Below are positions 3,799 through 19,590 of a stretch of DNA of 20,062 nt, piece by piece. Position 1 is the first letter of the stretch. Each line of letters begins with the position of its first letter. Where the stretch lies: the IMG/VR virus record IMGVR_UViG_3300032311_000838, positions 1-20,062 of that record. One strand, 5' to 3'. Source of the DNA: a virus. The notes beneath the pieces are model-generated. The model did not search any database, was not told the DNA's origin, and was given only the letters and a program-made list of their open reading frames with translations. Both the position numbers and the translations under genes were made by a program.

Positions 3799-4167
3799 AT
3801 GATTTATTTAACAAAGGATATAGATAATACTATTTTAGTAACTATAGGAGATCAATCTCTAGGGATTAATAATCCCTATTACTATTTATCCCTTTATCAT
3901 ATTGCTACTAATACTAATTATTTCGTAGATTTAGGGCAGGATATGAGCCCTAATCCTGAGAGGTTTAATAGATTTACGTTTTCAGCTCCTACCTTTAAGG
4001 ATGGGCAGTATAGATATACTATTTATCTCTCTGATGGAGTAGCAGTAAATGAGGATGATAACAATATAGCAAAAGTTTTAGAGGCAGGTTTAGCTCAGCA
4101 TTTATATACTGATACTAATTTTTCTGCTTATTCTGATAATGTAACATATTATGAGCCAAATATTTAA
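3799..4167 (+). CDS. Small virion-module protein of unknown function
   Basis: A 122-residue protein, beta-rich and aromatic (YYYLSLYHI, YRYTIYLSDG), with no signal peptide or membrane segment. It resembles short proteins I associate with Bacteroidota phage structural modules that end in a Tyr-rich tail (here VTYYEPNI), but I cannot name a family. It sits directly upstream of the portal gene and overlaps it by 17 bases, so the two are probably translated together. It could be a head, neck or tail accessory protein. The leader between the upstream terminator and the ATG is AT-rich with no clear -7 box. Confidence 0.6.
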   Translation: MIYLTKDIDNTILVTIGDQSLGINNPYYYLSLYHIATNTNYFVDLGQDMSPNPERFNRFTFSAPTFKDGQYRYTIYLSDGVAVNEDDNNIAKVLEAGLAQHLYTDTNFSAYSDNVTYYEPNI

Positions 4168-6085
4168 GAGAGTAGATTTATCTGCAGTAGCTCCTGAGGA
4201 GTATAAAGAAAAGCCTGTTAAAGGTATTGTAACTGCAGGAGAGAGAAATGATTACCCTGATAAACTCCTAGAGCTTTATTATAAATCTGCTAAGCATAAC
4301 GCCCTAGTAAATGGTAAGGTTAATTTCGTTGTAGGCGGAGGTTTACAAATAGAGAATAATAATCTAAATCCTGAGCAGCTAAATATCGTTAATCAGTTTA
4401 TCTCATCTCCTAATCCCTATGAGGATGGAAATGATCTACTAAATAAAGTAGCAGCAGATTTTGAGCTATTTAATGGCTTTTATCTAGAGGTTATATGGGG
4501 CTATAATCAAAAGCCTGTATCAGTAGCTCATGTACCTTATCAGGAAATTAGAACTAATGAGGATAAGGATAAATTTTACAGGTTAGAAAATTGGGGCTCT
4601 AGCTTTAAACTAGATAAGGCTGAGGTAATACCTACCTTTGATCCTGAGAATAAAAACGGAAAGCAGATTATTTTCTATAAAAAATATACAGCAGGAGGCA
4701 AAGTTTATGCTATCCCTGATTATATCGGGGCTCTAAAGTATATCGAAATAGATAAAGAAATTAGTAATTTCCATCTTCAAAATTTAAATAATAATTTTTG
4801 GGGAGGATTTATGATCTCCTTTAATGATGGAAAGCCCTCAGAGGATGCAGCTAGATCTATAGAGAGAAAGATTAATGATAAATGGGGAGGTACTAATAAT
4901 GCAGGGAGGATGTTTATTACCTTCCATGATAGTAAAGAAAATGCTCCTACTATAGATGCTATCCCTACATCTGATCTACCTGAGCAGTTTAATATGCTAA
5001 ATGAGCAGGTTAGTACTGAGTTATTTGTAGCTCATAGGATTACTAGCCCTTTAATATTTGGTATCAGAGAGTCAGGATCTCTAGGTAATAGAAACGAATT
5101 AATAGAGGCTTATGAGCTCTATAAAAATATCTATGTAGCAGATAGGCAGGCTAGTATCTGCTCAGTATTTAATTATATCCTATCTTTTCATGGGGTAGAT
5201 AATGCAGTATCTATTAGACCATTAGATCCTATTAAGGCTCAGCTATCTGAAACAGCTCTGCTACAGGTATCTACTAAGGATGAGATGAGAGCTATAGCAG
5301 GGCTAGATCCTTTGCCTGATACTACTCAGGGCTCTCAGCAGCAGTTAATTAATGCTATTAATCAGCTCTCTCCATTGGTAGCTAATAAGGTATTAGAGAG
5401 CATGAGTGCAAATGAGATCAGGGCTATAGTAGGATTAATGCCTGTTACTGAGCCTGCTCCTGCTACTCCATCAGCTTTTAGCTCTGAGGATTTTGATTAT
5501 ACTATTTTTGGGCAATATGGAGAGGCAGCAGATGATTATGAGGTAATTAGCTCTGAGGTATTTAAATATCAGAGCCTATCAGATACTATCATGGCTGAGG
5601 CTGAGTTATTTGCTTCTCAGTATGATGATCTAGATAAGGCTATTTTAAAGTTATTGAAAGATGATCCTAATTTACCTGCTGCAGATATTGCATCTAATGT
5701 AGATGCAGCTGAGGATCTAGTATCAGAGAGGCTAAATTATCTAACTGAAAAGGGATTAATTAAAGTAGATAGAGGATTACGAAAATTAGGAGATAAAGTA
5801 GAGGATTATATTAAATCTACTGATGGATTTCTAGAGGTTAAATATCAGTATGAGAAAAATCCTAAATTCTCAGGAGCTGCAAAATTGCCTACTACTAGAG
5901 ATTTTTGCGCCTATATGCTAGATAATCCTAGATTATTTAGCAGAGATGAGATAGATACTATATCTAATATTACAGGCAGAAACGTATGGGAGCTAAGAGG
6001 AGGATTTTATACTGATAAAAAAACTAATATAACCTATCCATTTTGCAGGCATATTTGGATGCAAAAATTAGTAAAGAGAAAATAA
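4151..6085 (+). CDS. Portal protein with extended C-terminus
   Basis: A 644-residue protein resembling phage portal proteins, the dodecameric ring at the capsid vertex through which DNA is packaged. Portal-like features are GERNDYPDKLLELYYKSAKH near residues 30-50, the VNGKVNFVVGGGL segment (about 53-66), and the region around residues 285-335 (FVAHRITSPLIFGIRESG) that resembles portal stem/crown sequence. Typical portals are about 400-500 residues. The extra C-terminal part contains a winged-helix-like stretch (about 495-550, ending LTEKGLIKVDRG). It also has a terminal domain with TTRDFC, LFSRDEIDTIS, RNVWELRGGFYT and PFCRHIW (about 580-640). I know similar C-terminal domains from Bacteroidota portal proteins. 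It starts inside the upstream gene and is followed after one base by the connector gene. Confidence 0.82.
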   Translation: MSQIFKRVDLSAVAPEEYKEKPVKGIVTAGERNDYPDKLLELYYKSAKHNALVNGKVNFVVGGGLQIENNNLNPEQLNIVNQFISSPNPYEDGNDLLNKVAADFELFNGFYLEVIWGYNQKPVSVAHVPYQEIRTNEDKDKFYRLENWGSSFKLDKAEVIPTFDPENKNGKQIIFYKKYTAGGKVYAIPDYIGALKYIEIDKEISNFHLQNLNNNFWGGFMISFNDGKPSEDAARSIERKINDKWGGTNNAGRMFITFHDSKENAPTIDAIPTSDLPEQFNMLNEQVSTELFVAHRITSPLIFGIRESGSLGNRNELIEAYELYKNIYVADRQASICSVFNYILSFHGVDNAVSIRPLDPIKAQLSETALLQVSTKDEMRAIAGLDPLPDTTQGSQQQLINAINQLSPLVANKVLESMSANEIRAIVGLMPVTEPAPATPSAFSSEDFDYTIFGQYGEAADDYEVISSEVFKYQSLSDTIMAEAELFASQYDDLDKAILKLLKDDPNLPAADIASNVDAAEDLVSERLNYLTEKGLIKVDRGLRKLGDKVEDYIKSTDGFLEVKYQYEKNPKFSGAAKLPTTRDFCAYMLDNPRLFSRDEIDTISNITGRNVWELRGGFYTDKKTNITYPFCRHIWMQKLVKRK

Positions 6086-9798: not shown

Positions 9799-9838
9799 TA
9801 TTTTTGTTTTGTCTTCTCATAGGCATTAGGTTTTAGGA

Positions 9839-9864
9839 GCTCCTGCATAATTGCAGGGGCTTTT
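9839..9864 (+). terminator. Rho-independent terminator after the spanin
   Basis: GCTCCTGC (9839-9846), loop ATAATT, GCAGGGGC (9853-9860), TTTT. The T-tract runs directly into a TATATTTG box at 9864-9871. Confidence 0.75.
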
Positions 9865-9871
9865 ATATTTG
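9864..9871 (+). promoter_or_regulatory. Candidate Bacteroidota -7 box (TATATTTG) before the HAD gene
   Basis: TATATTTG matches TAnnTTTG and ends 5 bases before the ATG at 9877, so a transcript starting there would have almost no leader. A second match, TATTTTTG, lies at 9799-9806. No clear upstream TTG element was found for either. Confidence 0.4.
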
Positions 9872-9876
9872 TATGT

Positions 9877-10179
9877 ATGAGGATTAGTTTTGATTATGAT
9901 GGTACATTAAGCAAAAAAGCCTATAGGGATATAGCAGCTATAGCTTTAAAAGATGGGCATGATGTTTATGTAGTTACTGCTAGGCATGATGATAATCTAG
10001 ATGATGTTAAAAAGGTAGCAGATCTATTAGGCATTAAAAGGAGTAATATCTATGCTACTAATGGCAGGGATAAAGTAGATACTCTGCTAAAGCTAAAGAT
10101 AAAACTGCATTATGATAATAATCAGGAGCAGGTAGATAAGATTAGAGCAGCAAAAATCAAGGCTATCCTAGCAAAATAA
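9877..10179 (+). CDS. HAD-family phosphatase, small
   Basis: A 100-residue protein with the four HAD hydrolase motifs in order: FDYDGT (Asp6 nucleophile, Asp8), VVTARHDD (Thr34), a lysine in GRDKVD (Lys66) and HYDNN (Asp80/Asn81, a Mg2+-binding motif IV position). It lacks a cap domain, as expected for a C0-type minimal HAD. Small phage HAD proteins of this kind are likely soluble phosphatases acting on a nucleotide or a nucleic-acid 5'/3' phosphate; the substrate cannot be told from sequence. It is flanked by terminators on both sides (9839-9864 and 10204-10232), so it is probably a single-gene transcription unit. Confidence 0.8.
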   Translation: MRISFDYDGTLSKKAYRDIAAIALKDGHDVYVVTARHDDNLDDVKKVADLLGIKRSNIYATNGRDKVDTLLKLKIKLHYDNNQEQVDKIRAAKIKAILAK

Positions 10180-10264: not shown

Positions 10265-10294
10265 TTGACAATAACAAAAAAGGTGGTATTTTTG
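10265..10294 (+). promoter_or_regulatory. Strong early promoter, Bacteroidota type
   Basis: TTGACA (10265-10270), a 16-base spacer and TATTTTTG (10287-10294), matching the Bacteroidota primary-sigma pattern of an upstream TTG element and a TAnnTTTG box. This is the only place in the window where both elements are present. It follows a terminator and precedes the run of small genes starting at 10352, with a leader of about 50 bases ending in AAACCTAAAACAA. Confidence 0.7.
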
Positions 10295-10351
10295 TCATGT
10301 AGTAATCAATAACTGATAAAAAAAATAAATCAAAAATAAAACCTAAAACAA

Positions 10352-10564
10352 ATGAGCACATTGTACAAAGTAGTAGTAGAGCCTATGCAGGAGCATATCT
10401 CTGAAAAGCCTAATTTTTGCAGAGATTTTGCAAATAAGGATAAAGCAATTAGATACATGGAAGAGGTAGCAGATGTATTAGATCTATCTCTATCCTCTGA
10501 TTATCATCATGCAGGAGGGATAGGATTTGATTATAGAGCCTATATCCTAGATGTTGAAGCATAA
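10352..10564 (+). CDS. Small early protein of unknown function (70 aa)
   Basis: First gene after the early promoter. The 70-residue protein is acidic, without signal peptide or membrane segment; readable parts include FANKDKAIRYMEEVADVLDL (about 26-45) and HHAGGIGFDYRAYILDVEA at the C-terminus. I do not recognise the family. First genes behind strong early promoters often encode host-takeover or anti-defence proteins, but nothing in this sequence proves that. The start is supported by the leader AAACCTAAAACAA directly before the ATG, a variant of the leader at 12231-12243 and 17140-17152. Confidence 0.6.
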   Translation: MSTLYKVVVEPMQEHISEKPNFCRDFANKDKAIRYMEEVADVLDLSLSSDYHHAGGIGFDYRAYILDVEA

Positions 10565-10591
10565 TTAACTGAAACTTTTAAACCTAATTAT

Positions 10592-10801
10592 ATGAAAGTA
10601 CTTTTTAAATGGTTAGTAATTTTATTTGCTATCCCTGTAGCTATCTATCTATTGGTAGGCTATGTAGTTAATGAGTTTAATCTCTCGAATTGGAGCAGCA
10701 GCGGCATACTAGGGCTAGCTTTTCTCTCCTTTGCATGGATTGTATTTGCTTTTCTAGCTTTGGCTATGGAAGAGCTACAAAAGATGGAGGATGAGAAATG
10801 A
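10592..10801 (+). CDS. Small protein with two membrane segments (69 aa)
   Basis: A 69-residue protein with two hydrophobic segments: residues about 4-27 (LFKWLVILFAIPVAIYLLVG) and about 38-60 (GILGLAFLSFAWIVFAFLAL), followed by a charged tail MEELQKMEDEK. A hairpin in the inner membrane is likely. The gene has its own leader AAACCTAATTAT before the ATG and overlaps the next gene as ATGA. Holin-like size and topology are possible, but its place in the early region away from the endolysin argues for another role, such as an early inner-membrane protein. Family unknown. Confidence 0.6.
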   Translation: MKVLFKWLVILFAIPVAIYLLVGYVVNEFNLSNWSSSGILGLAFLSFAWIVFAFLALAMEELQKMEDEK

Positions 10802-11103
10802 ATGAGCTCAGATTTTGCAAGCCTAAAGCAGTATATTTTGAAGAGGTAAAATTTACTATAGGCATCCTAGAGGTAGAGGTATTTAATGCTATTAGAAACC
10901 TAGATAATTTTACCCATCAGGATCTATCTAATTTATTCTCTAATAGCTTTTCTGCTCAGTTAAATCAAGGATTAAAAGATATTACCTATAATCTGCCATT
11001 TACTAGCATTAATGCAGCTAGAGAGATTAATAAACTGCATACTATTACTATCTCAGTAAATAATGATAATTATCAATTAGTTATTTTAACTGAGCAAAAA
11101 TGA
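10798..11103 (+). CDS. Early protein of unknown function (101 aa)
   Basis: A 101-residue soluble protein with short beta-prone segments at both ends (KFTIGILEVEVF and HTITISVNNDNYQLVIL) and a helical middle (FTHQDLSNLFSNSFSAQLNQ). It overlaps the gene before it and the HNH gene after it as ATGA, so it sits inside one operon. I do not recognise a family; candidates would be a small regulator or an inhibitor of a host enzyme, neither shown by sequence. Confidence 0.55.
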   Translation: MNELRFCKPKAVYFEEVKFTIGILEVEVFNAIRNLDNFTHQDLSNLFSNSFSAQLNQGLKDITYNLPFTSINAAREINKLHTITISVNNDNYQLVILTEQK

Positions 11104-11726
11104 AAAGGAGGTTATTAACTGCTGCAGAGATGGAGTATATTAATAAAAATTACCCGATCTCATCCTGTAAAGATGTAGCCATGCATTTAAATATGCCTCA
11201 GTTCAAAGTTTATAACTATGTATGGAGGATAGGATTAAAAAAAGATCCTGAATTTAGAGCTAATCAGCTAAAGGTAGAGGCTAAAAAACTCAGTAAGCTA
11301 GGCAGGTACAATAGATTTAAAAAAGGTCATGAGCCATTTAACAAAGGCTTAAAAATGAATGCAGAGCTCTATGAAAAATGCAAGCCTACAATGTTTAAAA
11401 AAGGTAGCAAGCCTCATAATTTTAAACCTGATGGATCAGAGAGGATAGATAAAGATGGATATACTATGATTAAACATAATGGTAAATATCATCATAAGCA
11501 GAGATTTATCTATGAGCAGCATCATGGGATTGATCTACCTAAAAATTATGCAGTAGTTTTCAAAGATGGAAACAGGCAAAATTTTATGATAGATAATCTA
11601 TTAGCTGTAAGCAGAGGAAAGCTGATGCTACATAATACTATCCATAACTACCCTGCAGAAATTAAATCTACTATCAAAATTTTATCAAAACTTAAAAAAG
11701 AAATCAATGCCAAAAAACAAAATTGA
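11100..11726 (+). CDS. HNH endonuclease with N-terminal helix-turn-helix
   Basis: A 208-residue protein. Residues 7-45 form a helix-turn-helix-like segment (SCKDVAMHLNMPQFKVYNYV). Two copies of an F-K-K-G-x-x-P-x-N type motif follow (FKKGHEPFNKGLK about 73-85; FKKGSKPHNFKPDG about 99-112), typical of NUMOD-type DNA-binding elements in phage HNH enzymes. The nuclease core is YHHKQRFIYE (His131/His132), then FKDGNRQNFMIDNL (Asn161, Asn166), matching the H-N pattern of the HNH fold. It would cut double-stranded DNA. As a free-standing phage enzyme it may be a homing endonuclease or take part in DNA processing. No intron or interrupted neighbour was seen. Confidence 0.82.
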   Translation: MKRRLLTAAEMEYINKNYPISSCKDVAMHLNMPQFKVYNYVWRIGLKKDPEFRANQLKVEAKKLSKLGRYNRFKKGHEPFNKGLKMNAELYEKCKPTMFKKGSKPHNFKPDGSERIDKDGYTMIKHNGKYHHKQRFIYEQHHGIDLPKNYAVVFKDGNRQNFMIDNLLAVSRGKLMLHNTIHNYPAEIKSTIKILSKLKKEINAKKQN

Positions 11727-11943
11727 GGATCTTAGAAATCATTTATTTTCTACCCTCGAGGCTTTACTAGATGAGGAAAAGCCATTAGAACTAGATAGAG
11801 CTAAAGCTATAGCAGATGTAGCTCAGGTAATTGTAAACTCTGCTAAGGTAGAGGTAGATTATGTGAAAGCTACTGAAAGGAGTAGAGGTACATCAGGATT
11901 TTTCCCTGATAGCCCTAATGGAAGTTTATACATTAACGAATAA
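11707..11943 (+). CDS. Conserved phage protein next to HNH endonuclease (78 aa)
   Basis: A 78-residue protein with KIEDLRNHLFSTLEALLDEE at residues 5-24 and ELDRAKAIADVAQVIVNSAK at about 28-47. I recognise this layout from small helical proteins in many Bacteroidota and other phages, near endonuclease and replication genes. I know no function. It overlaps the HNH gene by 20 bases, so the ATG at 11707 is either coupled or the gene uses a rare start further in. The C-terminal 25 residues (SRGTSGFFPDSPNGSLYINE) are probably disordered. Confidence 0.6.
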   Translation: MPKNKIEDLRNHLFSTLEALLDEEKPLELDRAKAIADVAQVIVNSAKVEVDYVKATERSRGTSGFFPDSPNGSLYINE

Positions 11944-11945
11944 CT

Positions 11946-12194
11946 ATGAGCAGATTAATCTCCATGCCTACTGATATACTAGAGGCGTTTACTAATCAGA
12001 TGGAACTTTATCAGATAACTAAAGAGGATATACACAGGCATAGCAAAGTAAATAGAACTACTATCAGGAAAGCCCTAAAGGGAGGATCTATCAGGAAAGA
12101 TCTACAGCTGAACATGGTAAATAGCCTAGTTTATTTGTTAAGAAACAGGCAGCTAAATGGAATCCCTAAAAAATGTAAAAAAGAAATAGCATAA
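11946..12194 (+). CDS. Small helix-turn-helix protein, possible regulator
   Basis: An 82-residue basic protein with a plausible helix-turn-helix at about residues 22-55: ITKEDIHRHSKVNRTTIRKA, with a GG turn and further helices. It resembles Cro/XRE-type or plasmid-type DNA-binding folds by pattern only. Its position just before a promoter and the ERF operon makes it a candidate regulator of early or middle genes, possibly binding the repeated leader or the -7 boxes; that is inference. The C-terminus is Lys/Cys-rich (IPKKCKKEIA). Confidence 0.6.
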   Translation: MSRLISMPTDILEAFTNQMELYQITKEDIHRHSKVNRTTIRKALKGGSIRKDLQLNMVNSLVYLLRNRQLNGIPKKCKKEIA

Positions 12195-12217
12195 AAACCA
12201 ACAAACAAAAAAAGCAG

Positions 12218-12243
12218 TATTTTTGAGCATAAACCTAAAACCT
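12218..12243 (+). promoter_or_regulatory. -7 box plus conserved leader of the ERF operon
   Basis: TATTTTTG (12218-12225) is followed by the leader AAACCTAAAACCT (12231-12243) directly before the ATG at 12244. The same 13-base leader, letter for letter, lies at 17140-17152. No upstream TTG element is visible, only an A/C-rich stretch. Confidence 0.55.
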
Positions 12244-12879
12244 ATGAGTAACATTATTAAAAACCTGAGAGAGCTGCAGGTAAAATTAAAAGCTCCCAAA
12301 AATCAGCGCAATAATTTTGGAGGTTATAACTACCGATCATGCGAGGATATTCTAGAGGCAGTTAAGACTCTGCTGCCTGATGGATTTATTATCTATCTAG
12401 ATGATGAGATACAGATGATAGGCAGTAGATTTTATGTAAAAGCTGAGGCTGTTTTTACGGATGGAAAGGAAAGAGTAACAGCTAAAGGATATGCTAGGGA
12501 GGAGGAGATAAAAAAAGGCATGGATGGATCTCAGATTACAGGAGCAGCCTCTAGCTATGCTAGAAAATATGCCCTAAATGCTCTGCTTTTAATTGATGAT
12601 AATAAGGATGCAGATGCTACTAATCAGCATGAGAAAGATAAGCCTGTATATCAGCCTAAAACTAAGGTAGAAAAGAAAGCTACTGAGCCTAAGGATGAGC
12701 CTAAAGTAGAGATTAATTTTACTAATCTATCAGATGAGCTACTAATGAGAGCCATTACTAAGTATCAGGAGGCAGTATCAGATGAGGAGAGAGAAAAGAT
12801 AGAGAGCTATTTAATGAGTAATTACTACCTATCAGATGAGCAGGTTAGTAAATGGGCAGCAGTTAAATCTAAAAAGTAA
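12244..12879 (+). CDS. ERF-family single-strand DNA annealing protein
   Basis: A 211-residue protein of the ERF superfamily, recombinases that anneal complementary single strands during phage recombination and replication. Core motifs are NNFGGYNYRSCEDILEAVK (about 22-40) and, in the strongest family signature, KGMDGSQITGAASSYARKYA (about 92-111) followed by LIDDNKDADA. After residue 125 comes a Lys/Glu/Pro-rich linker and a C-terminal helical region (about 155-211) that probably binds partners such as single-strand binding protein. A start at TTG 12223 is possible but would sit inside the -7 box; the ATG at 12244, preceded by the conserved leader, is far more likely. The stop overlaps the next start (TAATG). 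Confidence 0.86.
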   Translation: MSNIIKNLRELQVKLKAPKNQRNNFGGYNYRSCEDILEAVKTLLPDGFIIYLDDEIQMIGSRFYVKAEAVFTDGKERVTAKGYAREEEIKKGMDGSQITGAASSYARKYALNALLLIDDNKDADATNQHEKDKPVYQPKTKVEKKATEPKDEPKVEINFTNLSDELLMRAITKYQEAVSDEEREKIESYLMSNYYLSDEQVSKWAAVKSKK

Positions 12880-13349
12880 TGAGCAGTAATTTAATTAATA
12901 TCCTGCAGGGGCTAAATGGTAAAGCCTCTGCAGATGCTATCAGCTCTGCTATTATCCAATCAGTAGAGGATGGAGCAGCAAACCCATTAGAGGTAAAGAT
13001 TAAGGCTAAAATTATGCAGGAGGCTCTAGCATCAGCAGTAAGAGAGATAGATTTTTATGCTCAGGCTGAGGCAGAGAAATACGGCAGAGCAGGAGATACT
13101 TTACATGGGGCTAAATTTTCAATAGCAGAGGTAGGCTCTAGGTATGATTATCAGAGCTGCAAAGATCTCTATTATCAGGAGCTCCTAGAAAAGCAGGCAG
13201 AGCTAGATGAGCTATTTAAGGAAAGGGAAAAATTTTTAAAAGCCATTACTAAGCCTACAGCAGTTATCCATCCTGATACAGGAGAGAGCTATGAGATTAA
13301 TCCTCCTGTAAAATATTCTACTACTCAGGTTAAAATTAAATTACTATGA
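12879..13349 (+). CDS. Recombination-operon protein of unknown function (156 aa)
   Basis: A 156-residue, mostly helical, acidic protein. It contains ISSAIIQSVEDGAANPLEVK (about 22-41), an AEKYGRAGDTLHGAKFSIAE segment (about 65-84) and EVGSRYDYQSCKD just after it. The C-terminal part has an acidic coiled-coil-like stretch (LLEKQAELDELFKEREKFL). I have an impression of similar proteins next to annealing proteins in Bacteroidota phages, but cannot name a family. It is coupled to the ERF gene by TAATG, so a partner in recombination (nuclease cofactor, loader or single-strand binding function) is the natural guess, not shown by motif. Confidence 0.55.
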   Translation: MSSNLINILQGLNGKASADAISSAIIQSVEDGAANPLEVKIKAKIMQEALASAVREIDFYAQAEAEKYGRAGDTLHGAKFSIAEVGSRYDYQSCKDLYYQELLEKQAELDELFKEREKFLKAITKPTAVIHPDTGESYEINPPVKYSTTQVKIKLL

Positions 13350-13564
13350 GCCCTATATTTAAAGATTTTCAGAAAATAGATAGCATCATATCTAATCCCT
13401 TTAATCAGGATAAGCATTTAGCTCAGATAGAAAAGATGATAGCCCTATTTTTAGCTAAGCATGGCAGGGCTATTAATTTTAATCATAGCCATCATGAGCA
13501 TTATGAGCTGAATATACAGCTAACTATGATCCTAAAGGAAAAGCTAAATACGTTAATGAAGTAA
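13346..13564 (+). CDS. Small helical protein of unknown function (72 aa)
   Basis: The last gene of the ERF operon. A 72-residue protein with His-rich centre (FNHSHHEHYELNI, about 45-57) flanked by helices. The histidine cluster could bind a metal, but no cysteine ligands accompany it. It overlaps the upstream gene by 4 bases (ATGA), and a terminator follows directly. No family recognised. Confidence 0.55.
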   Translation: MSPIFKDFQKIDSIISNPFNQDKHLAQIEKMIALFLAKHGRAINFNHSHHEHYELNIQLTMILKEKLNTLMK

Positions 13565-13570
13565 AAAAAG

Positions 13571-13594
13571 GCTCTCCTGATGGGGAGCTTTTTT
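13571..13594 (+). terminator. Rho-independent terminator after the ERF operon
   Basis: GCTCTCC (13571-13577), loop TGAT, GGGGAGC (13582-13588), six T. Its T-tract overlaps by one base the TATCTTTG box of the next promoter, so termination and restart are fused here. Confidence 0.75.
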
Positions 13595-13616
13595 ATCTTT
13601 GCCTAAATCCTAAGCC
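13594..13616 (+). promoter_or_regulatory. -7 box plus leader of the initiator gene
   Basis: TATCTTTG (13594-13601) followed by CCTAAATCCTAAGCC directly before the ATG at 13617, a variant of the AAACCTAAAACCT leader. Confidence 0.5.
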
Positions 13617-14366
13617 ATGAGTAAAAAATTAGATGGATATAGTATCAGCAGATGGGTATGGGATTACCTACCTGCTACAGGTGCAAAGCCTGTAGATTAT
13701 GCTCTAGCATTTTATATCTCCCATCTCCATAACTTAAATAAGAATGGAGGCTATTTATCTCTATTCTCTGAGGATATTTCAGTAAATCTAGGTATAGATA
13801 CCCGAACGATTTATAAAGCCCTTAAAAGGCTTGAAAATGCCTCATTTATTTCTATCATCTCTGAGGCTAAAAATCAGTACAAAACTTTAAAGATTAAAAT
13901 TACTCTAGGCATCCCATCTATGCAGGAGCATTTGCCTAAGCATTTGCCTATACAAAAAATGCAGGAGCAAAATGATATGCCTAAGCATTTGCCTAAGCAT
14001 TTGCCTCAGCAAAAAATGCAGGGGCACTCCTTATATATAGGTAAAGAACTAAATACTAAATATCATTATGATGATTATAGGGAGAAAAATGATGAGCTTT
14101 TAAATCAGTTTTTAGCAGATGAGAGCTACCTAGAAAGCTACTGCATGAATACAGGAATTAAGATAGAGGATTATGAAAAGCTAAGGACAGATTTTGTCCA
14201 AAATGCTAAGCTGAAAGCTGATGCATATCCTAGATATTCAGAGCTCATTAGGCATTTTGCAAACTTTAGCAGGAAGAGGCAGCAGATGGGAGATCCTACA
14301 AACTCTAAAAAATCGTTAAAAAGCAAACAGGAGAGAGCCCTAGAGCTGATCTCTCAGAAAAAATAA
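13617..14366 (+). CDS. Winged-helix replication-initiator-like protein
   Basis: A 249-residue protein. Residues 1-40 (YSISRWVWDYLPATGAKPVD) and a winged-helix segment at about 44-95 (LSLFSEDISVNLGIDTRTIY, KALKRLENASFISII) resemble the N-terminal domains of phage replication initiators such as lambda O or DnaD-like proteins. Residues about 101-136 are a repetitive basic linker with two MPKHLP/HLPKHLP blocks and MQE/KMQ; the DNA encoding them carries iteron-like repeats. The C-terminal part (about 145-230) is helical, with a RYSELIRHFANFSRKRQQMG stretch that may bind a helicase or its loader, as in DnaD/DnaT-type C-terminal domains. The gene has its own promoter and leader. Origin recognition and replisome loading are inferred from architecture. 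Confidence 0.62.
   Translation: MSKKLDGYSISRWVWDYLPATGAKPVDYALAFYISHLHNLNKNGGYLSLFSEDISVNLGIDTRTIYKALKRLENASFISIISEAKNQYKTLKIKITLGIPSMQEHLPKHLPIQKMQEQNDMPKHLPKHLPQQKMQGHSLYIGKELNTKYHYDDYREKNDELLNQFLADESYLESYCMNTGIKIEDYEKLRTDFVQNAKLKADAYPRYSELIRHFANFSRKRQQMGDPTNSKKSLKSKQERALELISQKK
13928..14023 (+). repeat. Iteron-like direct repeats, candidate replication origin
   Basis: GCATTTGCCT occurs four times, at 13928, 13940, 13985 and 13997, as two pairs each with a 12-base step. The whole block, including a downstream CAAAAAATGCAGG (13953 and 14010), is repeated with a 57-base offset. The repeats are inside the initiator-like gene, as the lambda origin lies inside gene O. They encode the basic linker, so protein repeat expansion is the alternative explanation. 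Confidence 0.6.
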
Positions 14367-14367
14367 A

Positions 14368-14396
14368 TACTTTTGTTTAAACCTAATACCTAAAGC
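14368..14396 (+). promoter_or_regulatory. -7 box plus leader before the 14397 gene
   Basis: TACTTTTG (14368-14375) starts two bases after the upstream stop; TTTAAACCTAATACCTAAAGC follows as leader up to the ATG. Only the -7 element is visible. Confidence 0.45.
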
Positions 14397-15104
14397 ATGA
14401 ACTACAAAGATTTACCTAAAAGAGAGCAGCAGGCAGCAGCCCTAGAGCTGATCTCTATAGCCTATGCCTACTATGGCACTAATGCAGAGGCAGAGGATCT
14501 AGCAATATCTGCAGGCATCCTAGCAGAGGATCTATCCTGCATCCCTGATCTGCAAGTAGAGGAGCTAAATAACCTATTTATCAGCTCACGAAAAAAGCAG
14601 GGAGATATTTATAAATGCTATCCTGCCCTCATTTACAAAATGATTAAAGCAGAAAAGAGCTCCATTAATCAGGTAAAACAATATTCTCAGATCCTACAGC
14701 CTGCAGAGGTTAATGAGAAACTAGAAAGAGAGAGAGCTGTAGATTTTGCTGATAGTGTAGCTATCCCATTTCTAACCCTACTCTCTGAATGCAGAGAAAA
14801 AGAGGCAGCTAAAAAATATCCCTTTATCCCTGCATCAGTAATCTATGATTTTCTCCTGAAACATAATGCAGCTGATCTATCCCTAGAGGATCAGGATTAT
14901 AATGAGGCTATCCATGAGCTAGAGAAAGCAGCAGAGCAGGCAGGATATTTTGAAGCTAAAGAGCTAAAGGATCTAATTACTCAGATAGCTATCCCTAAAG
15001 GATCTACAGAGCTATCATTTAGAGCTAAAGCCTATGCAGTTAAAAGGTTAGCCGTAGATGAGCAAAGATTTAAAACAACTATTTACAATTTAAAAACTTT
15101 ATAA
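14397..15104 (+). CDS. Unknown protein after the initiator (235 aa)
   Basis: A 235-residue, acidic, almost entirely helical protein with Ala-rich segments (REQQAAALELISIAYAYYG at about 9-27; AAKKYPFIPASVIYDFLLKH at about 137-156). There is no Walker A motif, so it is not a typical DnaC-like loader ATPase, and no cysteine cluster. The place right after a lambda-O-like gene, with its own -7 box and leader, suggests a partner in replication, but I recognise no family. It also could be a scaffold or regulator of the early region. It ends one base before the next gene. Confidence 0.6.
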   Translation: MNYKDLPKREQQAAALELISIAYAYYGTNAEAEDLAISAGILAEDLSCIPDLQVEELNNLFISSRKKQGDIYKCYPALIYKMIKAEKSSINQVKQYSQILQPAEVNEKLERERAVDFADSVAIPFLTLLSECREKEAAKKYPFIPASVIYDFLLKHNAADLSLEDQDYNEAIHELEKAAEQAGYFEAKELKDLITQIAIPKGSTELSFRAKAYAVKRLAVDEQRFKTTIYNLKTL

Positions 15105-15105
15105 T

Positions 15106-15360
15106 ATGGATTTTGGAGGATCAGAGGTTAGAGCTATGTTAATGTATTGGAAAATCAGAAAAGGGCTATTTAATCTGCATACTAGCCTAAGTAATAAGCT
15201 AGATATATATCAGCTAGAAAAAGATACTAATGAGGCTTTTTATAAAAACCTAGAGGAGATCAGGAAAAGAGCAAGCGATAACGAATTAAAAAATTTAGAG
15301 AATGTTGAAAAAAGCTATCAGCTCAGATACGAAGAGCAAAACCGATTTTATAAAGCCTAA
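15106..15360 (+). CDS. Small helical protein of unknown function (84 aa)
   Basis: An 84-residue protein; after a short N-terminus (MDFGGSEVRAML) it is a charged helix, with coiled-coil potential in the second half (YKNLEEIRKRASDNELKNLE, about 45-64). It begins one base after the upstream stop and overlaps the following gene by 59 bases. No family recognised. Confidence 0.5.
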   Translation: MDFGGSEVRAMLMYWKIRKGLFNLHTSLSNKLDIYQLEKDTNEAFYKNLEEIRKRASDNELKNLENVEKSYQLRYEEQNRFYKA

Positions 15361-15523
15361 GTATCTCAGGCAGATCTCTAGAACATCAGAGATTTACCTA
15401 GATGATAAGCCTATTAAATTTGAGGATTTTTACATAGCTCTAGGGCTAGATAGTTTATCTAGATTGAAAGCCTTTTATTACCTATCAGATCATAACAGGA
15501 TAAAGCTAAAGGTAAAAAAATGA
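15302..15523 (+). CDS. Small basic protein of unknown function (73 aa)
   Basis: A 73-residue basic protein with a C-terminal half reading KFEDFYIALGLDSLSRLKAF and ending in lysines (IKLKVKK). The second half may be a small helical DNA-binding fold, but no clear helix-turn-helix can be argued. The only ATG gives a 59-base overlap with the upstream gene. That is long for this genome, so a non-ATG start near 15360 is possible and the first 20 residues are uncertain. It overlaps the next gene as ATGA. Confidence 0.5.
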   Translation: MLKKAISSDTKSKTDFIKPKYLRQISRTSEIYLDDKPIKFEDFYIALGLDSLSRLKAFYYLSDHNRIKLKVKK

Positions 15524-15732
15524 GCATACTAAAATACTCCCATCTGCAGCTGATAGATCATTTTAAGAGGCTGCAATTTGATAAGGAGGTAGAGATACTA
15601 TCAGATAAGCAGGCAGCAGAATTAGCTTTTAAATATATCTGCAGCAGGCTAAAAAATGCAGATCATACTGCAGGAGAAATACAGGATCTAAATACTCAGT
15701 ACTATGCCCTAAAAACCTACCTAAATGAATAA
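15520..15732 (+). CDS. Small protein sharing a repeat with the DUF1064 gene (70 aa)
   Basis: A 70-residue helical protein (SHLQLIDHFKRLQFDKEVEI near the N-terminus). Residues about 51-60 (AGEIQDLNTQ) are identical to a stretch in the DUF1064 gene just downstream, with 29 of 30 underlying bases the same. In DUF1064 this peptide belongs to the family motif. Here it appears as an isolated piece, pointing to local duplication. It overlaps the next gene by 8 bases. Confidence 0.5.
   Translation: MSILKYSHLQLIDHFKRLQFDKEVEILSDKQAAELAFKYICSRLKNADHTAGEIQDLNTQYYALKTYLNE
15670..15699 (+). repeat. Copy 1 of a 30-base direct repeat
   Basis: Starts GCAGGAGAAATACAGGATCT and matches 15824-15853 except for one base, in the same coding frame. 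The copies lie 154 bases apart in adjacent genes. Confidence 0.85.
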
Positions 15733-16045
15733 GTATAGAAATAAGATAGTAGAACTAGATGGGCTTAAATTTGATAGCGCAAAAGAGGCTGCTAGGTATC
15801 AGATGCTAAAGCTGAGGGCTAGAGCAGGAGAGATACAGGATCTAAATACTCAGGTTAAAATGCCCTTTATCTATGAGGGTAAAGAGCTATTTAAGTACAT
15901 AGCTGATTTTACCTACTTTGATGTTATTAAAAAAAAGCTAATAATTGAGGACGTTAAATCAGAGTTTACTAAGAAATTACCTGTTTATAGATTAAAAAAA
16001 AAGCTGATAGAGGCTCAGTATAAAATCAAAATAGAGGAGATATGA
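15725..16045 (+). CDS. DUF1064-family nuclease-like protein
   Basis: A 106-residue protein resembling DUF1064, small phage proteins with a PD-(D/E)XK-like core. Seen motifs are LDGLKFDSAKEAARYQML (11-28, with Glu21 in the usual place), RAGEIQDLNTQV (33-44), YIADFTYFD (Asp61) and IIEDVKSEFTKKLPVYRLKK (73-92, D76-x-K78). The Asp61 and Asp76-x-Lys78 pattern fits a metal-dependent nuclease active site. Family members are often placed near replication and recombination genes and may resolve or trim DNA. It overlaps the previous gene by 8 bases and the next as ATGA. Length is normal for the family. Confidence 0.76.
   Translation: MNKYRNKIVELDGLKFDSAKEAARYQMLKLRARAGEIQDLNTQVKMPFIYEGKELFKYIADFTYFDVIKKKLIIEDVKSEFTKKLPVYRLKKKLIEAQYKIKIEEI
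15824..15853 (+). repeat. Copy 2 of a 30-base direct repeat
   Basis: Starts GCAGGAGAGATACAGGATCT; this copy belongs to the conserved AGEIQDLNTQ motif of the DUF1064 gene and is probably the source. Confidence 0.85.
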
Positions 16046-16260
16046 TAGAGATAACACCAAAAGAAATGGCAAAGGGATTATTTACACCTGAAAATTTAAG
16101 GAAAGGTTTAATGAAATCAATTCATGATAAAATTGAAATGGGATCAAAAACAAAAATTGTTTTTTCTGAACATATTGAAAAAAACGGAATAATTAATTTT
16201 ATTGAATATACTGAAAGTTTTTATTGGTTGGAGGTACAAAAAGAAATAGAAAAATTATGA
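16042..16260 (+). CDS. Small unknown protein with atypical codons (72 aa)
   Basis: A 72-residue protein beginning MIEITPKEMAKGLFTPENL. It uses GAA, CAA, TTG and AAT where its neighbours use GAG, CAG and CTA, suggesting recent arrival from another genome. Its C-terminus (YWLEVQKEIEKL) parallels that of the next gene (YWEEVKKYIEKL), and both end in an ATGA overlap. No catalytic motif or membrane segment. Function unknown. Confidence 0.6.
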   Translation: MIEITPKEMAKGLFTPENLRKGLMKSIHDKIEMGSKTKIVFSEHIEKNGIINFIEYTESFYWLEVQKEIEKL

Positions 16261-16481
16261 AACCTAAAGAAACTGCAGAAAAGCTAGTGGATGAGTATTA
16301 TAGCATCTTTGCTAAAAGGCTACATTTATCTGAAAGCTTTGATAGTCAGTATAGATATAATTTCTGCAAGCCTCTAGCTAAAGAATGCGCTCTAAAAGCA
16401 GTAGATCTATTACAGGAGCAGCTATTTTTAACCAATGGCAAATATTGGGAAGAGGTAAAAAAATACATTGAAAAGCTATGA
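16257..16481 (+). CDS. Small Bacteroidota-phage conserved protein (74 aa)
   Basis: The start is taken at ATG 16257 (MKPKETAEKLVDEYYSIFAK) rather than 33 bases upstream, because it gives the ATGA overlap usual in this operon. The segment AKECALKAVDLLQEQ (about 40-54) followed by YWEEVKKYIEKL at the end is a layout I know from many small Bacteroidota phage proteins of unknown function. Helical, no signal peptide. Confidence 0.62.
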   Translation: MKPKETAEKLVDEYYSIFAKRLHLSESFDSQYRYNFCKPLAKECALKAVDLLQEQLFLTNGKYWEEVKKYIEKL

Positions 16482-16720
16482 ACACACCGACCAAAATATA
16501 TAAGGATATGCTGATTAAGGCTCTGCAGGATCTCCTAGATTATCCTGAGGAGCAGTATCAGGGAGCTAAGAATATGCTAGATAATTTCATACATAACATA
16601 GAGCAGATGCAGCTAGCAGAGGATGAGCTATTTTTTAATTTTAATCAGGCTCTAATGGATATGGCAAAAAAAGTTAAAACTGAAAAGCTAATGGTAATCC
16701 CGATCAAGTACAAAAATTAA
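16478..16720 (+). CDS. Small helical protein of unknown function (80 aa)
   Basis: An 80-residue acidic helical protein (YKDMLIKALQDLLDYPEEQY, about 9-28; IEQMQLAEDELFFNFNQAL, about 41-59) with a short basic strand-like end (LMVIPIKYKN). It overlaps the upstream gene as ATGA; an 18-base gap follows. No family recognised. Confidence 0.55.
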   Translation: MNTPTKIYKDMLIKALQDLLDYPEEQYQGAKNMLDNFIHNIEQMQLAEDELFFNFNQALMDMAKKVKTEKLMVIPIKYKN

Positions 16721-16738
16721 CTGCCTATATTTACAAAT

Positions 16739-16906
16739 ATGAATGCAGAAAAATATCAGATCATAGAGGCTCTAAAGGAGCAGATTAAAGGAGATTTTAG
16801 CGAGAGAGATGCTGAGCTGTATAAACGGATCAGAGAGCTACAGCAGGAGGATCAGGTAGCTAAGCCTCAGGGCTCAGCCTTTGAATGCTTTGGATGCGGA
16901 TCGTAA
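16739..16906 (+). CDS. Small protein with terminal CxxCG motif (55 aa)
   Basis: ATG 16739 opens a 55-residue charged helix (YQIIEALKEQIKGDFSERDA, about 6-25) ending in ECFGCGS. The phage's codon style (GAG, CAG, CTA, GCT) runs through the whole frame, which is good evidence for translation. CFGCG is a half zinc-ribbon knuckle; a dimer could bind one metal. The stop (TAA) lies 4 bases before the next start. Confidence 0.65.
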   Translation: MNAEKYQIIEALKEQIKGDFSERDAELYKRIRELQQEDQVAKPQGSAFECFGCGS

Positions 16907-16910
16907 AATT

Positions 16911-17117
16911 ATGTGGGAATATAAAACAGAACAATTCAAAGTAGAACGAAATAGTGATAAAAACTGTGATGATATTTTGAATGAATTTGGTAGAGAGGGA
17001 TGGGAAGCCTTTTCAATTAAAAAAGAACCTTACTTTGATAGCAGATTGCGAATAGGTAAATATAAATTGCATACCGCTAATATATACGAAGTTAAATTAA
17101 AAAGGCGTGTAGGATAA
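16911..17117 (+). CDS. DUF4177-like small protein, atypical codons
   Basis: A 68-residue protein beginning MWEYKTEQFKVE, with LNEFGREGWEAFSI (about 23-36) and a closing strand (ANIYEVKLKRR). The W-E-Y-K start and the L-N-x-x-G-x-x-G-W-E centre are the signature of DUF4177, small beta-rich proteins of unknown function. I start it at ATG 16911. An ATG at 16881 in the same frame would add 10 residues read out of frame through the preceding gene. Codons (CGA, CGT, CAA, GAA, TTG) differ from the phage norm, so it is probably a recent acquisition. Confidence 0.7.
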   Translation: MWEYKTEQFKVERNSDKNCDDILNEFGREGWEAFSIKKEPYFDSRLRIGKYKLHTANIYEVKLKRRVG

Positions 17118-17120
17118 TTT

Positions 17121-17152
17121 TATATTTGCTAACTCATTAAAACCTAAAACCT
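17121..17152 (+). promoter_or_regulatory. -7 box plus conserved leader before 17153
   Basis: TATATTTG (17121-17128) and the 13-base leader AAACCTAAAACCT (17140-17152) directly before the ATG. The leader is identical to the one before the ERF gene. Confidence 0.55.
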
Positions 17153-19284: not shown

Positions 19285-19299
19285 TTTATATTTATAGGT

Positions 19300-19590
19300 A
19301 TGAAAGATATTTTACATAGCTTAGGCATAGATATTACATTTTCTGCAGCAGGATTTTTAGGCTCTGCTCTGATGTTTTATAATAAGAAAAAGAAAACATG
19401 GGGAGGGGCTTTTATAGCTTTTACCTCAGGGATTTTATGTGCTAATTATGTTACTCCTGTTATTACTCATTCTCTAGGATTGGATGGGGAAAAAATGGAA
19501 AGAGGCATGGCATTTATTCTAGGCTTTATCGGATTGCAGGGAGTAGAGTATATGATAAATAAGTATTTCCCTAAAAAATCTGATGCATAA
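19300..19590 (+). CDS. Holin-like membrane protein
   Basis: A 96-residue protein with hydrophobic segments at about 10-27 (IDITFSAAGFLGSALMFY), 35-58 (GGAFIAFTSGILCANYVTPV) and 71-88 (AFILGFIGLQGVEYMI), and a basic end (NKYFPKKSDA). Three spans, a short charged loop (NKKKKTWG) and a position close to the endolysin fit a holin, the membrane pore that releases endolysin. I recognise the layout from putative holins of Bacteroidota phages. The start is 15 bases after the DUF3310 stop. The stop overlaps the next gene (ATGCATAA), the same junction as at 19066. Confidence 0.66.
   Translation: MKDILHSLGIDITFSAAGFLGSALMFYNKKKKTWGGAFIAFTSGILCANYVTPVITHSLGLDGEKMERGMAFILGFIGLQGVEYMINKYFPKKSDA

Follow-up and report, generated by a model that had tools for sequence, protein, structure and literature searches.

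A short, A- and C-rich leader, whose core AAACCTAA lies about 12 bases upstream of start codons in the replication region, is reused before several genes of the phage DNA analyzed here and probably represents the form that the A-rich, Shine-Dalgarno-independent ribosome-landing (translation initiation) region of Bacteroidota takes in one phage group. While such a landing region is already known in Bacteroidota, the particular form AAACCTAA is most likely new. The DNA (hereafter the window) is an IMG/VR virus record of 20,062 nucleotides (20 kb) without assigned host. The portal protein shows weak similarity to the portal of Nonlabens phage P12024S and the lysin is nearest to those of Riemerella and Elizabethkingia phages, which loosely indicates flavobacterial hosts; a portal search for the host in 395 genomes of one order gave a single distant match only. 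In line with the original note, which took the genome to have no Shine-Dalgarno (SD) sites, it is poor in them, an SD-like tetramer being present at only ~10% of window starts versus 30-75% in many SD-using loci; this count, like the chance, chromosome, 7-mer and phage-core counts below, was made on mechanically called open reading frames, some starts of which are wrong. Because of the portal and lysin similarities and these few SD-like starts, we infer a Bacteroidota host, probably flavobacterial. A winged-helix segment (HTH_24, residues 492-538) in the C-terminal part of the portal protein (4151-6085) is unusual for a portal.

The exact 13-mer AAACCTAAAACCT was confirmed directly upstream of two ATGs, at 12244 and 17153; the window holds no third copy on either strand, and none is on the minus strand. 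The variants reported before 10352, 10592, 13617 and 14397 proved to be present as written. The copies, with their counterparts in the relatives, are the following:

10339-10351, plus strand: leader AAACCTAAAACAA, abutting ATG 10352; AAACCTAAAACT precedes the ortholog in L003 and AAACCTAAAACCTAAAGAA that in a 28 kb relative
10580-10591, plus strand: leader AAACCTAATTAT, abutting ATG 10592, without TAnnTTTG box; AAACCTAATATT in L003
12231-12243, plus strand: leader AAACCTAAAACCT, upstream of the gene for the Erf recombinase; the L003 copy is the same, that of the 28 kb relative is AAACCTAAACAAT
13602-13616, plus strand: leader variant CCTAAATCCTAAGCC, before ATG 13617 of a replication-initiation-like gene; CCTAAAACCTAAGCC in L003, CCTAAAACCTAAAACC in the 28 kb relative
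14379-14396, plus strand: leader variant AAACCTAATACCTAAAGC, before ATG 14397; same in L079, where one base differs immediately upstream
17140-17152, plus strand: leader AAACCTAAAACCT, before ATG 17153; L080 keeps the last 11 bases, with a changed spacer

About six of the 36 window genes carry the leader, all of them in the replication region, and neither the window nor the 28 kb relative has a leader copy outside the replication and recombination region. Five of the six plus-strand copies of AAACCTAA in the window are leaders; the sixth (16260) corresponds to codons 2-4 of gene 16257.

Conservation in relatives, which had been proposed as a check, was found down to ~60% protein identity, the leader being present on five contigs of one phage group. 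In the 28 kb relative (contig 3300033129_000617), whose portal is 82% identical and several of whose early proteins are ~60% identical, all five plus-strand copies of AAACCTAA abut an ATG or belong to a leader that does so. There, the counterpart of the 17153 leader consists of three tandem AAAACCT units and has no promoter box. The L003 ortholog of 10352 retains its leader with no box nearby any more, and L003 genes 3946 and 4283, both absent from the window, each have their own leader. Judged from this distribution, the leader would have been copied along with the replication- and recombination-region genes of the phage group, and common descent is the simplest reason for its confinement to that region.

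Most copies stand directly 3' of a Bacteroidota housekeeping promoter (TAnnTTTG). The four TAnnTTTG boxes originally described, at 12218, 13594, 14368 and 17121, were verified and end 18, 15, 21 and 24 bases upstream of the ATG, respectively; a fifth box, overlooked at that time, lies 57 bases upstream of 10352:

10287-10294, plus strand: -7 promoter box TATTTTTG of the Bacteroidota type, with TTGACA at 10265; TACTTTTG in L003, TAAATTTG in the 28 kb relative
12218-12225, plus strand: -7 promoter box TATTTTTG; degenerate TATTTTTA in L003 (last G lost), where the leader is unchanged
13594-13601, plus strand: -7 promoter box TATCTTTG, continuous with the T-run of a terminator-like hairpin
14368-14375, plus strand: -7 promoter box TACTTTTG
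17121-17128, plus strand: -7 promoter box TATATTTG

In Flavobacterium johnsoniae, transcription starts 4-5 nt past TAHHTTTG (PMC6847099). Assuming a start ~5 bases past the box, the predicted 5' UTRs at 12244, 13617, 14397 and 17153 are 11-20 nt long and the leader would make up most or all of them; at the Erf recombinase gene, AAACCTAAAACCT is almost the entire predicted 14-nt 5' UTR. At 10352, the leader forms only the end of a predicted 53-nt 5' UTR. The statement that genes inside operons lack the leader held for most genes and failed for 10592, which has no box, and for the box-less leader genes of the relatives (4283 and 4571 in L003; 19255 in 3300033129_000617). Regarding gene ends, two terminator-like hairpins (13574-13601 and 9834-9871) have a T-run merging into the TAnnTTTG box of the next gene (GGGGAGCTTTTTTATCTTTG and GCAGGGGCTTTTATATTTG), the former being conserved in the 28 kb relative. 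Promoter-like sequences TATATTTG/TATATTTA also end ~5 bases upstream of an ATG at 9864-9877, 16727-16739 and 19287-19300; these would yield nearly leaderless mRNAs, and the 28 kb relative has several genes with a similar arrangement.

The position of the leader relative to these two landmarks is informative. Across 19 sites on five contigs, the last core starts 13 to 11 bases upstream of the ATG in every case (sd 0.7), a spread that is somewhat flattering since the core pattern variants AATCCTAA, ATACCTAA and GACCTAA were picked after the sites were seen. In the same set, the distance from box to core varies from 4 to 44 bases (sd 11). The leader is thus tied to the start codon, without a fixed link to the promoter. 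This fixed ATG register versus loose box distance is the strongest single argument in favor of a translational role over a promoter-bound operator.

Bacteroidota ribosomes initiate without SD pairing, and in F. johnsoniae, A at -3, -6, -12 and -13 is correlated with initiation or promotes it (PMC6847099), while AT enrichment at -13 is a proposed S1 target (PMC3155529). In the phage, the G-poor, A-rich leader would occupy the place that the Shine-Dalgarno site has in other phages: the 30S subunit may bind this single-stranded stretch, probably via ribosomal protein bS1, and initiate at the ATG ~12 bases 3' of the core, with a presumed effect on translation yield. The exact leader has one A block (AAA) at -13 to -11 and a second (AAAA) at about -7 to -4. 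The core start at -13 to -11 in all 19 sites agrees with the A enrichment expected at -14 to -11 for such a region, and chromosomes and other phages have the same peak. The leader thereby resembles the Kozak-like A-rich region of Bacteroidota (PMC6847099, PMC3155529) in its A block at -13 to -11, its A at -6 and its being a short, G-poor leader after a TAnnTTTG promoter. It differs from this region in being a single fixed sequence of 8-13 bases reused at several genes, in its invariant CCT at about -10 to -8, which the Bacteroidota consensus does not predict, and in having C instead of the favored A at -3. This C would count against a Kozak-like A-rich reading; the AAACCTAAAACT and AAACCTAAAAAA forms carry A at -3. 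Similarly, a TAAAA ribosome-binding consensus was proposed for Flavobacterium hibernum and also seen in front of Flavobacterium phage FL-1 genes (PMC5465603). TAAAA is likewise a short A-rich stretch within 20 bases of phage starts that replaces a Shine-Dalgarno site, but it is shorter and less specific, whereas AAACCTAA is position-locked and particular to the present phage group. Predicted openness around the ATG did not differ significantly between leader genes and other genes (mean 0.68 vs 0.59, P=0.15), and structural openness was dropped as a distinguishing trait.

Related A-rich cores occupy the same position in other phages. In other SD-poor phage loci (1940 upstream regions), AAAC[ACT]1-2AA is found 115 times at -13 to -11 against 16.3 expected, a ~sevenfold over-representation, while in SD-rich phage loci it is not enriched there (1 vs 1.3 expected) and GGAG peaks instead. 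The upstream 7-mers that emerge as enriched from de novo counts are AAACTAA for Cellulophaga phage phi19:1, AAACCAA for Flavobacterium phage 11b and AAACCTA for the present phage group, as compared with the word GGAGG for SD users. At the chromosomal starts of Bacteroidota, A peaks at -13 to -11 and at -3, and AAACNNAA clusters at the former position. None of seven AAACCTAA occurrences in other phages is at that position, and near-matches to the leader in 395 Bacteroidota genomes number 82 versus ~126 for a reversed control. Owing to these two results, AAACCTAA appears to be the variant of one phage group and not a phylum-wide sequence; as a general Bacteroidota element the leader was rejected for lack of excess over the reversed pattern in those genomes. 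Exact matches to promoter plus leader are scattered: of 25 such stretches, 20 belong to named Bacteroidota and 13 precede open frames longer than 100 aa. The openly licensed papers searched report no phage-specific fixed leaders of this kind. As side observations, SD-poor phages (L228-L234, L003-L159) have group-specific 7-mers (AAACTAA, AAACCAA, AAACAAA) near the Shine-Dalgarno position, and Nonlabens phage P12024S has an enriched upstream 7-mer, CGTTAAT, near the same position.

Collectively, the repeat, its ATG anchoring, its conservation and the occurrence of a general A-core in SD-poor phages are direct observations. They bear out the translational location in the original proposal of a dedicated translation enhancer (core fixed to the ATG, related cores in SD-poor phages), while the wording "dedicated enhancer" goes beyond the data. 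The fixed leader and the variants AAACTAA, AAACCAA and AAACAAA constitute compact natural leaders for probing what Bacteroidota ribosomes read when they locate starts without Shine-Dalgarno pairing, and with such leaders both the prediction of start sites and the expression tools available for Bacteroidota could become better.

The invariant CCT exceeds what an A-rich initiation region needs, and the leader sits exactly on the ribosome landing site and, in the window as in the 28 kb relative, only at genes of the replication and recombination region. These properties would fit an RNA operator, in which a protein of phage or host, or else a small RNA, recognizes the common AAACCUAA leader and turns the replication-region mRNAs on or off in concert. 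T4 RegA acts in such a way, binding shared translational operators on T4 early mRNAs. The likeness lies in a common sequence at the initiation sites of early and replication genes; the sequence itself is different and no RegA-like protein was identified for the present phage. As no candidate RNA-binding repressor was identified, and as related A-cores at the same position in many unrelated SD-poor phages make a phage regulator unneeded, such control is unlikely. There is a similarly small chance that the CCT-containing leader is a phage-specific translational tag, AAACCUAA being selectively recognized by a phage factor or an infection-altered ribosome; if so, it would favor or time the translation of replication-region mRNAs over that of host mRNAs.

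A DNA operator bound by the helix-turn-helix protein encoded at 11946 had also been suggested:

11946-12194, plus strand: 82-aa protein with a predicted XRE/Cro-like helix-turn-helix fold (model pLDDT 87)

The best Foldseek matches of this model are HipB, C-proteins and Stl (prob 0.99, E 0.02-0.2), while a sequence-based family search gave no family match. The protein is conserved in the relatives, its probable recognition region included, and several leader copies lie directly 3' of promoters, as would be expected if it bound AAACCTAAAACCT to repress several transcription units. This suggestion nonetheless did not find support and is very improbable, since the box-leader spacing varies over 4-44 bases while the ATG spacing is fixed, the site is a direct repeat without palindrome and some copies have no nearby box. 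Moreover, the promoter at 10265-10296 has its own conserved inverted repeat, a more usual type of operator: TGACAA (10266-10271) and TTGTCA (10291-10296) form a dyad across both elements (-33 and -7) of the 10287 promoter, the first one in the replication region; the 28 kb relative retains this dyad, and L003 does so with a single mismatch. This dyad is plausibly a better operator candidate than the leader for the 11946 protein.

The product of gene 12244 is an Erf-type annealing protein, and each of the two extra L003 genes came with its own leader. The leader could accordingly be pictured as a boundary sequence, a short homology aiding cassette swaps by Erf-type annealing recombination and conserved through copying with inserted genes. 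This is equally hard to credit, 8-13 bases being short for recombination and the strict ATG register and similar cores in other phages favoring translation; a role in cassette swaps could be a secondary effect of a translational leader.

Least probable of all is that an A-rich genome produces such similar leaders without function: Bacteroidota upstream regions are indeed A-rich throughout, but a 13-base run common to two ATGs and directly upstream of them arose in 0/1000 column shuffles (letters permuted within each upstream column, keeping the A-rich positional composition) and 2/1000 Markov sets, AAACCTAA at 5/40 starts was above all 400 column shuffles, and relatives have kept the leader. 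For the 28 kb relative alone, column shuffling gave a weak result for 7-mers (P 0.35) and a moderate one for 8-mers (P 0.02), so that the conservation argument there stands on orthologous position. The enrichment before starts that had been put forward as a check was also evident, at least 11 of 13 leader positions being matched at 4/36 window starts versus 1/470 transcription-unit starts in Bacteroidota chromosomes. Finally, a perfect palindrome, GGATGCGCATCC, is located in L003 (4520-4535) between an inserted gene and the following leader.
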